Source: Halosimplex salinum (GTDB lineage: Archaea; Halobacteriota; Halobacteria; Halobacteriales; Haloarculaceae). From it: DNA of 64,000 nt. A program made the translations under genes and the position numbers. Numbering within the stretch: position 1 is the first letter of the stretch; each line of letters starts with the position of its first letter. Shown here one piece after another: positions 22,512 through 49,543 of the stretch. The stretch spans positions 372,001 through 436,000 of the forward strand of contig NZ_QWGG01000004.1 of the NCBI RefSeq assembly GCF_003730195.1, written 5' to 3'. Below the pieces are notes generated by a model that ran no database searches, was not told the origin of the DNA, and saw only the letters and a list, made by a program, of their open reading frames with translations.

Positions 22512-24431
22512 ATGGCGAGCAACAAGATTCTCGGAATCGACCTCGGGACCACGAACAGCGCGTTCGCGGTCATGGAGGGGGGCGACCCCGAGATCATCGT
22601 CAACTCCGAGGGCGAGCGGACGACGCCGTCCGTCGTCGCGTTCGACGACGGCGAGCGTCTCGTCGGCAAACCCGCGAAGAATCAGGCAGTCAAGAATCCC
22701 GAGCAGACGATCCAGTCCATCAAGCGCCACATGGGCGAGGACGACTACTCGGTCGAACTCGAGGGGGAGGAGTACACGCCCGAGCAGGTCTCGGCGATGA
22801 TCCTCCAGAAGATCAAACACGACGCCGAGGAGTACCTCGGCGACGACGTCGAGAAGGCGGTCATCACCGTCCCGGCGTACTTCAACGACCGACAGCGTCA
22901 GGCCACGAAGGACGCCGGCGAGATCGCCGGGTTCGAGGTCGAGCGTATCGTCAACGAGCCGACCGCGGCCGCGATGGCGTACGGCCTCGACGACGAGTCC
23001 GACCAGACCGTTCTCGTCTACGACCTCGGTGGCGGGACGTTCGACGTCTCCATCCTCGACCTGGGCGGCGGCGTCTACGAGGTCGTCGCGACCAACGGTG
23101 ACAACGACCTCGGTGGCGACGACTGGGACCACGCGATCATCGACTACCTCGCAGAGGAGTTCGAGGACGAACACGGCATCGACCTCCGCGAGGACCGACA
23201 GGCGCTCCAGCGACTCAACGACGCCGCCGAGGAAGCCAAGATCGAGCTCTCCAACCGCAAGGAGACCCGCATCGACCTGCCGTTCATCACGACGACGGAC
23301 GACGGCCCGCTCGACTTAGAGGAGAAGCTGACTCGCGCGAAGTTCGAGTCGCTGACGGCGGACCTCATCGAGCGGACGGTCGGCCCGACGGAGCAGGCGC
23401 TCGAAGACGCCGGCTACGGCCAGGACGACATCGACGAGGTCATCCTCGTCGGCGGTTCGACGCGGATGCCGCAGGTCCAGGACCAGGTCGAGGAGATGAC
23501 CGGGCAGGAGCCCAAGAAGAACGTCAACCCGGACGAGGCCGTCGCGCTCGGCGCGGCCATCCAGGGCGGCGTCCTCTCGGGCGACGTGGACGACATCGTC
23601 CTGCTCGACGTGACGCCCCTCTCGCTGGGCGTCGAGGTCAAGGGCGGTCTCTTCGAGCGACTCATCGAGAAGAACACGACCATCCCGACGGAGGAGTCGA
23701 AGATCTTCACCACGGCCGCGGACAACCAGACGCAGGTCCAGATCCGCGTCTTCCAGGGTGAGCGCGAGATCGCCAACGAGAACGAACTGCTCGGCGAGTT
23801 CGCGCTCAGCGGTATCCCGCCGGCCCCCGCCGGCACGCCCCAGATCGAGGTGTCGTTCAACATCGACGAGAACGGCATCGTCAACGTCTCCGCCGAGGAC
23901 AAGGGCTCCGGCAACGAGGAGAACATCACCATCGAGGGCGGCGCCGGGCTCTCGGACGACCAGATCGAGGAGATGCAGGAGGAGGCCGAGGAGCACGCCG
24001 AAGAGGACCAGCAGCGCCGCGAGCGCATCGAGGCCCGCAACGAGGCCGAGAGCACGATCCAGCGCGCCGAGACCCTCCTCGAGGAGAACGAGGAGAACGT
24101 CGACGAGGAACTCGTCGAGGACATCGAGGCCGAGATCGACGACGTGCAGGAAGTTCTCGAAGACGAGGACGCCGACACGGAGGACTACAAGGAGGCCACC
24201 GAGAGTCTCGCCGAAGCCCTCCAGGAGATCGGCAAGCAGATGTATCAGGACCAGGCCGCAGAGGGCGCGGCTGGTGCAGGCGCCGCAGGCGGCGCGGCCG
24301 GTGCGGGCGGCATGGGCGGCATGGGCGGTGCCGGTCCTGGCGGCGCCGCAGGTGCCGGTGCTGGCGGGCAGGGCGAGGAGTACGTCGACGCCGACTTCGA
24401 AGACGTCGACGAGAGTGACGAGGACGAGTAA
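22512..24431 (+). CDS. dnaK: molecular chaperone DnaK (Hsp70)
   Basis: 639 residues; ATP-driven folding chaperone of the cytoplasm. The actin-like ATPase starts with [19 protein letters not shown], with [19 protein letters not shown] and the adenosine motif [13 protein letters not shown] further on. The interdomain linker region [17 protein letters not shown] opens the substrate domain (~380-500). The helical lid is very acidic, and the C-terminal tail is Gly/Ala/Met-rich (GGMGGMGG type) and ends [10 protein letters not shown]. The DnaK/GrpE system in archaea was acquired from bacteria; the gene shows normal haloarchaeal composition here. A dedicated dnaJ is not adjacent. Confidence 0.97.
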
Positions 24432-24740
24432 CACGAGTCCGAGGAACTCTCGTCGGCTCGATAGACGAACGCAGTGAGTCTATCGGTGTCTCGGAGTCCG
24501 AGCGGAGCGAGGACTCCGAGGGAGGCGAATCTTCGATTCGCCGTGCCTGAAAAAGCGAGCGAAGCGAGCTTTTTCAGTTGGACGAAGACGACGACGAGTG
24601 AAACGAGTCTGAGGAGCTTTCGTCGGCTCGATAGACGAACGCAGTGAGTCTATCGGTGTCTCGGAGTCCGAGCGGAGCGAGGACTCCGAGGGAGGCGAAT
24701 CTTCGATTCGCCGTGTCTGAAAAAGCGGGCGAACTGCGAA
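24421..24740. repeat. tandem duplication (period 170 bp) of a hairpin cluster after dnaK
   Basis: Copy 1 begins at the dnaK stop (24421) and copy 2 at 24591; the best-matching ~120 bases are nearly identical. Each copy holds hairpins CGATAGAC-GAACGCAGTGA-GTCTATCG, CGGAGTCC-GAGCGGAGCGA-GGACTCCG and GGCGAATC-TTC-GATTCGCC. Copy 1 also has CTGAAAAAGC-GAGCGAAGCGA-GCTTTTTCAG (24547-24577), a plausible terminator, whose right arm is lost in copy 2. Copy 2 even includes a remnant of the dnaK end (GACGACGAGTGA). No gene is visible in the 419 bases between dnaK and the next start. Confidence 0.85.
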
Positions 24741-24850
24741 TTCTCTGTCGATTTCGTGGACGGAAGCGGCGTCGCCGACGCGTTCCGAACAAAACGATCG
24801 TCCGTGAGACACGCGGCAATACTTAACAGTGGGACGGTCCGATGAGGTGT

Positions 24851-42053: not shown

Positions 42054-42173
42054 GTGAGCGCCGGTGTCTGACCGAGCGAAGCGAGGTCAGGCTCGGGGCG
42101 CGAGCGAAGCGCGCCGGTGGTGAGCGAACGCGGAGCGTTCGCGAGCCTCGGGGCGAACGAACGCAGTGAGTGA
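42054..42173 (+). repeat. partial tRNA 5'-end repeats with hairpins, left of tRNA-Gly
   Basis: Two tandem units precede the intact tRNA. Each starts with the tRNA 5' end (GCGCCGGTG at 42058-42066; GCGCCGGTGGT at 42111-42121), carries a hairpin (CTGACC-GAGCGAAGCGA-GGTCAG at 42068-42090; GCGAACGC-GGA-GCGTTCGC at 42124-42142) and then CTCGGGGCG (42092-42100; 42147-42155). A GAACGCAGTGA motif (42159-42169) abuts the intact gene. Confidence 0.8.
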
Positions 42174-42244
42174 GCGCCGGTGGTCTAGTGGTAGGACCTG
42201 AGCCTTCCAAGCTCATGGCCCGGGTTCAAATCCCGGCCGGCGCA
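42174..42244 (+). tRNA. tRNA-Gly (anticodon UCC)
   Basis: 71 nt. Acceptor stem GCGCCGG (42174-42180) pairs with CCGGCGC (42237-42243), discriminator A42244. The anticodon stem-loop GAGC-CTTCCAA-GCTC gives anticodon TCC. T-arm CCGGG-TTCAAAT-CCCGG is canonical. CCA is not encoded. Reads GGA glycine codons. Confidence 0.95.
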
Positions 42245-42350
42245 GTTCTGCGACGAGCGGACGCGAGGAGCGAACTCGTCAGAGGGATTTGAATCACGGC
42301 AGACCGAACGCAGTGAGGTCTGGCATCGGGTTCAAATCCCGGCCGGCGCA
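42245..42350 (+). repeat. inverted and direct tRNA-Gly 3'-end copies
   Basis: The last 24 bases of the tRNA (42221-42244) recur exactly at 42327-42350. Between them GGGATTTGAATC (42284-42295) is an inverted T-arm copy with one mismatch. The pair of T-arm copies is arranged around a perfect hairpin, CAGACC-GAACGCAGTGA-GGTCTG (42300-42322), so 42284-42340 is one near-palindrome centred on the GAACGCAGTGA loop. Downstream flanks of intact gene and copy also resemble each other (GAGGAGCRAAC). No second functional tRNA is present. Confidence 0.85.
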
Positions 42351-42387
42351 CTTTTGAGAAGTTACGAGGAGCAAACCCGTTAGAGAG

Positions 42388-49318: not shown

Positions 49319-49459
49319 TGCGCGGGACCGGATTTGAACCGAGTGGAGACGGTCGGCCTCGCTTCGCTCGGCCGCTGCGACTCCCCGGGTTCAAATCCGG
49401 TCTGTTCGCACTTCGTCGACGGACGCCTCGCTGTCGCTCGGCGTTGCGGTCGACAGAAG
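49319..49459 (-). repeat. inverted and direct tRNA-Leu 3'-end copies
   Basis: The last 23 bases of the tRNA-Leu gene recur exactly at 49319-49341, and the 15-mer GACCGGATTTGAACC appears three times: direct at 49326-49340, inverted at 49388-49402, and in the intact gene (49467-49481). The interval 49326-49402 is a near-palindrome centred on CGGCC-TCGCTTCGCTC-GGCCG (49354-49374). The interval 49388-49481 is a second one centred on ACGCC-TCGCTGTCGCTC-GGCGT (49423-49444), with the tRNA trailer (CACTTC..GTCGAC) also mirrored. Confidence 0.87.
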
Positions 49460-49543
49460 TGCGCGGGACCGGATTTGAACCGGCGGATCCCTACGGAACA
49501 GCGTCCTAAGCGCTGCGCCTTTTCCTGGCTTGGCTACCCGCGC
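49460..49543 (-). tRNA. tRNA-Leu (anticodon UAG)
   Basis: 84 nt, class II. Acceptor GCGCGGG (49537-49543) with CCCGCGC and discriminator A (49460). Anticodon arm CAGCG-CTTAGGA-CGCTG, anticodon TAG. A long variable arm (GTTCCGTAGGGATC) and T-arm with GGTTCAAATCC complete the fold. CCA is not encoded. Confidence 0.95.

Follow-up and report, generated by a model that had tools for sequence, protein, structure and literature searches.

Hairpin cassettes closed by copies of tRNA 3' ends beside haloarchaeal tRNA genes: a candidate case of polar insertion

Why should partial copies of a tRNA gene stand, in the same order, beside two different tRNA genes of one archaeon? The window analyzed here, a stretch of 64,000 nucleotides from contig C23 of Halosimplex salinum (genome G000, 5.07 Mb), poses this question. 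An initial annotation, made from sequence alone, had described an intact tRNA-Gly gene followed by an inverted T-arm, a hairpin and a direct copy of the tRNA 3' end, had reported the same architecture at tRNA-Leu, and had argued that recurrence at two tRNAs implies a mechanism. It named two outcomes that would refute it, the absence of any such arrangement at other tRNA loci and evidence that the fragments are attL and attR of one excised element.

The intact tRNA-Gly(TCC) gene (42174-42244, plus strand; ARAGORN and Rfam RF00005, 71 bits) anchors the first array. A spacer, X (42245-42283, plus strand), begins right after the discriminator base and carries the hairpin GACGAG...CTCGTC, as judged by sequence and fold. 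It is followed by the inverted T-arm GGGATTTGAATC (42284-42295, minus strand), which, apart from one mismatch, is the T-arm in reverse complement and forms the 5' arm of a long hairpin. Next comes an interior that we call type A (42296-42326, plus strand), in which CACGGCAGACC and GGTCTGGCATCG flank a cap; these flanks were also seen at other tRNAs and in other families. Its inner hairpin, AGACC-GAACGCAGTGA-GGTCT (42301-42321), holds the cap GA-AC-GCA-GT-GA (42306-42316, plus strand), a C-GNA-G triloop with tandem GA on its flanks. The last 24 nt of tRNA-Gly then recur as an exact direct copy (42327-42350, plus strand; G000:C23:414327-414350) that supplies the 3' arm of the long hairpin and the right end of the putative insertion. 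Beyond it lies a probable worn second X (42351-42386, plus strand), where CGAGGAGCAAACCCGTTAGAG is 86% identical to CGAGGAGCGAACTCGTCAGAG of the first.

The order of elements at tRNA-Leu(TAG), the second anchored array of the window, is identical. The gene (49460-49543), its X (49403-49459), the inverted T-arm (49388-49402; GACCGGATTTGAACC read on the tRNA strand), a type B interior AGTCGCAGCGGCC-GAGCGAAGCGA-GGCCGACCGTCT (49342-49387, with the cap at 49359-49369) and an exact 23-nt copy of the tRNA-Leu 3' end (49319-49341) all lie on the minus strand. Since the antisense T-arm precedes the tRNA-end copy, inverted and direct T-arm form the opposite sides of a single long hairpin, and folding placed them so around the inner hairpin. 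The Leu trailer folds much better than its shuffles (z = -6.6) and the Gly trailer alone modestly better (z = -1.4). Every element that had been described at tRNA-Gly was thus confirmed at its coordinates, and the architecture claimed for tRNA-Leu held.

The two tandem units with tRNA 5' ends that had been reported in front of tRNA-Gly also held, but among the 45 tRNAs surveyed in this genome they are unique to tRNA-Gly(TCC). The outer one (42058-42110, plus strand) consists of 9 nt of the tRNA 5' end (GCGCCGGTG, 42058-42066), a hairpin TGACC-GAGCGAAGCGA-GGTCA and CTCGGGGCG (42092-42100); the inner one (42111-42173, plus strand) has 11 nt of the tRNA 5' end (GCGCCGGTGGT, 42111-42121), a CGAACGC-GGA-GCGTTCG hairpin, CTCGGGGCG (42147-42155) and a second cap. 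Both close on an inverted copy (GGGGCGC). Such units also precede tRNA-Gly(TCC) in other genera and families, where they track that species' own tRNA letters (GCGCCGATGG at L096, GCGGCGG at L099). The 5' units are real, similar in style to the 3' cassettes but a separate feature of tRNA-Gly(TCC), and their function is not known.

We surveyed the tRNA loci, rather than the complete genome sequence, for copies of each gene's own last 20 nt with 3 mismatches or fewer within 700 nt downstream. In this genome 17 of 45 tRNA genes carry a copy of at least their own last 20 nt, from T-loop to discriminator, and none of the 45 has one upstream. When tRNAs were swapped as a control, the ends of other tRNAs matched in 22 of 1976 trials (1.1%). 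Given 17/45 against 22/1976 and none upstream, the 3' copies are not due to chance, and what is copied is the end of the adjoining tRNA. Other loci do show the arrangement, so the first refuting outcome did not occur, and the inference of a mechanism from two tRNAs is supported by the 17 of 45 found here and by the order-wide occurrence described below.

Of 198 tRNAs in a broader set, chosen in part for the pattern, 80 had an own-end copy. The identity most often spans 22 nt (GG followed by T54 through the discriminator), and the distance from the tRNA end to the first copy is 68-149 nt in 78 of the 80 first units. Of 98 units, 91 have an inverted T-arm ahead of the copy; in 72 of 86 it matches base 57 in the T-loop of that copy (Fisher p = 5e-9). 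It does not follow the tRNA-specific bases past the universal T-loop, and we therefore rejected the idea that it is a full antisense copy of each tRNA end. The core of the cassette is the T-loop, GTTCRAAT. Most units are not tandem duplications, since an array usually combines different types. Two peculiarities were seen in passing. The direct copies at L016, L017 and L022, which belong to different tRNAs, share an extra C in the T-loop (TTCACAAT for TTCAAAT), and a tRNA-Thr(GGT) on contig C22 (L010) is followed by unrelated sequence while its 3' part and T-arm units lie on contig C6 (L073), which looks like a large element inserted between the tRNA and its units.

The hairpins fold on one strand and covary. 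Cross-species alignment of two interior types placed 95.6% and 97.0% of cells in standard pairs, with two-sided, compensatory changes at 9 and 10 pairs; none of 500 shuffles reached the covariation score, and sliding the stem partners cut pairing to 16-51%. Two-sided changes were found in 64 cells and one-sided G-U changes, which are rare, in 10, and G-U makes up ∼1.4% of paired cells in the stems against 4.8% in tRNA acceptor stems of the same genome set. In 52 units the cap is found on the tRNA strand and in 3 on the opposite one, and GNA caps downstream of tRNAs number 24 sense and 10 antisense. One strand folds, and the data do not separate RNA from single-stranded DNA, with the scarcity of G-U pairs leaning away from classical selection on RNA. 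Free combination is seen among outer, middle and cap modules; interiors and spacers also recombine in modular fashion, and GTAG is present in some interiors.

The caps GAACGCAGTGA and GAGCGAAGCGA follow one design, GA-RC-GNA-GY-GA, and in 146 of 158 distinct contexts its R and Y are matched for base pairing, so that the "loop" is itself paired around a C-GNA-G triloop. The DNA mini-hairpin d(GCGAAGC) is extraordinarily stable, and tandem sheared pairs can arise from GA/GA beside it. The motif GARCGNAGYGA is present 471 times in this genome and its reversed control 147 times; the motif is also found away from tRNAs, as behind dnaK. A survey of haloarchaeal tRNA genes for nearby copies of this motif had been suggested; the motif is a general haloarchaeal hairpin cap rather than a tRNA signal. 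Cap hairpins away from tRNAs favor the 3' sides of genes, with only ten usable cases, too few to decide.

Several other hairpin-rich regions were observed. At dnaK (24430-24745), an ∼170-bp segment with three cap hairpins and a copy of the gene 3' end is tandemly repeated; the region is variable in the genus, and in G001 the insertion of a hairpin pair supplies the gene with another C-terminus, the former end remaining downstream (L237). An intergenic element of a few hundred nucleotides with many GNA hairpins, GGACTGAAAGGGCGAGGC ... GGATATCCCG..CTCAGCGACCGCGAG ... GAGGGCTTTC, recurs in this genome (L037, L039, L040, L049, L052, L053, L054 and L056). Bidirectional T-run modules of the type CATCTTTTTCCCG..hairpin..CGGGAAAAAGATGG, with freely varying stems, stand behind both tRNA and protein genes (L001, L002, L058, L059 and L062).

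The tRNA-end hairpins are very common across the order and touch as many as half of a genome's tRNA genes. The pattern GGATTYGAA-N25..55-TTCRAATCC was found in 102 of 117 sampled genomes of the order, with a maximum of 23 per genome, and the reversed control pattern in none of the 117; in a sample of the phylum, matches were confined to haloarchaeal genomes and two others. All 9 matches in this genome adjoin surveyed tRNA genes, and each of the 35 interior hairpins inspected in relatives has a tRNA within 700 nt, so that, among the hairpins examined, their association with tRNAs is exclusive. The type A interior (CACGGCAGACC...GGTCTGGCATCG, 0-2 mismatches) is limited to 12 of the 117 genomes in three families (f1, f6 and f12), where it accompanies tRNAs for Glu, Arg, Ser, Leu, Thr and Gly; one further match with two mismatches, in G111, is not a unit. 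An exact type A scan of 84,980 species returned haloarchaea only, including Halorhabdus, Haloarcula vallismortis, Natronomonas and Halorientalis. We found no description of haloarchaeal palindromes, tRNA-end repeats or GNA hairpins in the open-access library searched, which excludes subscription papers.

We compared the tRNA loci of G000 with those of two congeneric species (G005 and G006). Among 37 tRNAs with orthologs in all three species, a unit is present in at least one species at 23 and in all three at 4. Exact empty sites, defined by alignment of the post-copy flank from base 0-2 with the flank directly after the empty tRNA, were found at seven tRNAs (L063, L021, L067, L001, L004, L013 and L029), with flank alignment scores for the empty site against X of 58 versus 8 at L063, 52 versus 10 at L021 and 40 versus 13 at L067. 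Since the flank after the copy is the flank after the tRNA in the other species, the difference is an exact insertion or deletion of X, the hairpin and one tRNA-end copy. Homologous recombination between the tRNA-end repeats would delete a unit and likewise leave an exact empty site, so which way each change went is an inference. At tRNA-Gly itself, three congeners (G003, G004 and G007) are empty and G005 retains a worn unit, and the exact junction could not be demonstrated because the flanks of the empty congeners are too diverged to align with ours.

The arrays have a polarity. Of two adjacent copies, the outer is the more mismatched in 9 cases, the less mismatched in 1 and equal to the inner in 8, which shows decay outward from the tRNA. 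Inner units are specific to lineages and outer ones shared: in the clearest case, tRNA-Lys(CTT), G000 and G005 have the outer unit (CTCTCTCTGGCGCTC...GCGTCACGGAAGGGATT) in common and differ in the inner units, and at both tRNA-Lys(CTT) and Lys(TTT) the outer unit or its spacer is common across species and the inner unit differs. The Leu(TAG) and Met arrays agree with this trend.

The reading that we rank first, and that we consider as likely to be wrong as right, is the polar, site-specific insertion of non-coding hairpin cassettes of 70-150 nt at tRNA 3' ends, with duplication of ∼20 nt. The cassette (about 70-150 nt) would comprise the spacer hairpin X, the antisense T-arm and the structured interior, and would lie between the tRNA end and a duplicate of its last ∼20 nt, from T54 to the discriminator. 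A new cassette would enter at the T-loop/3' end, beside the tRNA gene, the duplicated end would rebuild the tRNA, and older cassettes would be pushed outward and then decay. Cassettes would need no benefit and would be tolerated because the tRNA stays intact. Most speculatively, the T-loop-armed hairpin may be a folded recombination site, with a tyrosine recombinase as the leftover candidate enzyme and the array working like an integron or CRISPR array while being neither. Against this reading, the modular recombination of interiors and spacers is not explained by simple cassette movement, no enzyme and no autonomous element with matching ends came to light, and recombinase numbers do not track the units, as set out below.

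One close likeness is to the gene cassette arrays of integrons, with their attI and attC sites and IntI integrase. Both kinds of array grow in a polar manner at a fixed site, and this criterion is met here by the 9:1 outer wear and the lineage-specific inner unit. In both, an imperfect palindrome closes the unit, its inverted core arm coming first and its direct core arm lying at the junction, one specific strand folds, and the boundary falls near G-TT of GGTTC. Unlike integron cassettes, the units described here carry no genes, their anchors are ordinary tRNA genes in many places, and what is duplicated is ∼20 nt of tRNA, not a core of 7 nt. The core, GTTCAAAT, is not GTTRRRY and fails the attC criterion of GTTRRRY / RYYYAAC, and the criterion of an IntI beside attI was not met: no IntI was identified, and tyrosine recombinases are few and do not track the units.

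Casposons and CRISPR arrays share with these arrays the duplication of a target of similar size, growth beside a fixed leader and degenerate outer repeats; casposon target site duplications measure 1-27 nt (median, 15), and some targets overlap 4-7 nt of tRNA 3' ends (PMC4046053). They differ in that Cas1 is absent from this genome and several unit-rich ones and in that the inserts are structured families, not spacers or elements with terminal inverted repeats. The tRNA-targeting tyrosine-recombinase elements of the SSV, pNOB8 and SNJ2 types use the 3' part of the tRNA and restore it, and the criterion of a direct repeat of the tRNA 3' end with an exact empty site is met. These elements carry genes and usually have longer att sites of 40-50 bp (PMC8371274), whereas the cassettes are about 100 nt long, non-coding and in tandem; with inserts of 68-149 nt in nearly all first units, the criterion of a gene-carrying interior or its remnants is not met. 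REP/BIME palindromes are also small, intergenic and present in many copies, but here the stems vary freely, the targets are tRNA ends with a ∼20-nt duplication, and the Y1 transposase of the RAYT type is undetected in three unit-carrying genomes.

Those three genomes (G005, G044 and G079) gave no PF01797 match, and Cas1 is missing from G000, G005, G034, G082, G091, G074, G090 and G117, several of them rich in units. A resident Cas1 or IS200/IS605 (Y1) transposase was therefore rejected as a necessary agent, being absent from unit-bearing genomes. Tyrosine recombinases are present in all 12 genomes tested (4-13 per genome). Their number does not track the units, with 5, 4, 13, 13 and 5 recombinases in genomes with 23, 15, 15, 15 and 14 units, respectively, and genomes with no unit carry 5-12. 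They remain a possible agent; no enzyme has been identified.

We found no autonomous element with the same ends in the chromosomes or in the viral, phage or plasmid records examined, and no autonomous transposon partner, as would be expected for miniature elements (MITEs), among the 35 hairpins of relatives in a search that was not exhaustive. Of 96 pattern stretches in viral contigs, none from contigs above 52% G+C resembles a unit, and phage and plasmid records matched the tRNA end only. Carriage by haloviruses or plasmids is thus not supported, no unit having been found in the collections searched. Viral contigs of 60-65% G+C do contain near-perfect T-arm palindromes (GGATTTGAACCGTGGACCTCTGG...CCAGAGGTCCACGGTTCAAATCC) at L183, L195, L198, L221 and L231, perhaps att sites of another kind. 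True integrative elements at these tRNAs have att copies of 43 nt (G006) and 49 nt (G026), and in G026 22-nt units lie outside attR. A 5-kb interval in G087, between two copies of the tRNA-Glu end plus a whole unit, might represent a mobile element that picked up a unit, offering a route for spread. Separately, a cluster of tRNA genes, many of them low scoring, occurs twice on a congener contig (G005:C3:6495-9296 and 116103-118906) and a similar one in G006, probably on mobile elements.

The main rival, which remains a possibility, is replication error, in which hairpin-driven template switching or slippage at tRNA ends makes both arms locally without any mobile cassette and gene conversion or quasi-palindrome correction keeps the arms matched. 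In its favor, stems change almost only by two-sided Watson-Crick swaps (64 against 10) with few G-U pairs, the inverted arm tracks base 57 of its copy (p = 5e-9), dnaK shows hairpins and repeated gene ends without any tRNA, and interior modules are exchanged concentrically. Against it, type A interiors recur without mismatch at different tRNAs and in different families, one array holds units of different types, and local copying predicts a tRNA-specific inverted arm, of which there is none beyond the universal T-loop.

A functional RNA is unlikely. Here the cassettes would be transcribed as tRNA trailers serving termination, processing or as a source of tRNA-end fragments, with selection keeping the structure. 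The caps and stable fold on the transcribed strand (52 against 3; GNA caps 24 sense, 10 antisense) and the strong covariation speak for it. Against it stand the few G-U pairs, the high turnover within the genus (units in all three species at 4 of 37 tRNAs), the decay of outer copies, the lack of any match among the Rfam 15 covariance models to a family besides tRNA, and T-runs after units that are not in excess.

Conventional att scars, with each copy the attR of an integrated virus or plasmid whose interior was later lost, are very unlikely. In their favor, the tRNA 3' end is where archaeal integrases have their standard att sites (PMC8371274), a very similar tRNA-Gly end is found in fuselloviruses, and the insertion is exact. 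Against them, insert length is short throughout (68-149 nt for 78 of the 80 first units), true elements leave att copies of 43-49 nt with the G026 units outside attR, no virus, phage or plasmid record searched holds the hairpin, and the G087 interval is bounded as if its unit had been picked up by the element. Insert size, att length and units outside attR likewise reject the scars of a single excised element, the second outcome that would have refuted the initial annotation.

A bolder form of the insertion reading, which we would sooner doubt than accept, is a dedicated recombination system found throughout the haloarchaeal order that adds structured non-coding cassettes in a polar manner beside tRNA genes, with the universal T-loop as its core and a folded single strand as its substrate, in effect a gene-less, tRNA-borne, integron-like system. 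If replication error is the correct reading, the arrays reveal a hairpin-making mutation process at gene ends. Either reading accounts for many partial tRNA copies that one might take for virus scars or for pseudogenes of tRNAs. If the insertion reading is true, it adds a class of tRNA-anchored arrays in which the order of insertions is recorded, and it raises the question of what enzyme works on tRNA ends in almost all haloarchaea.
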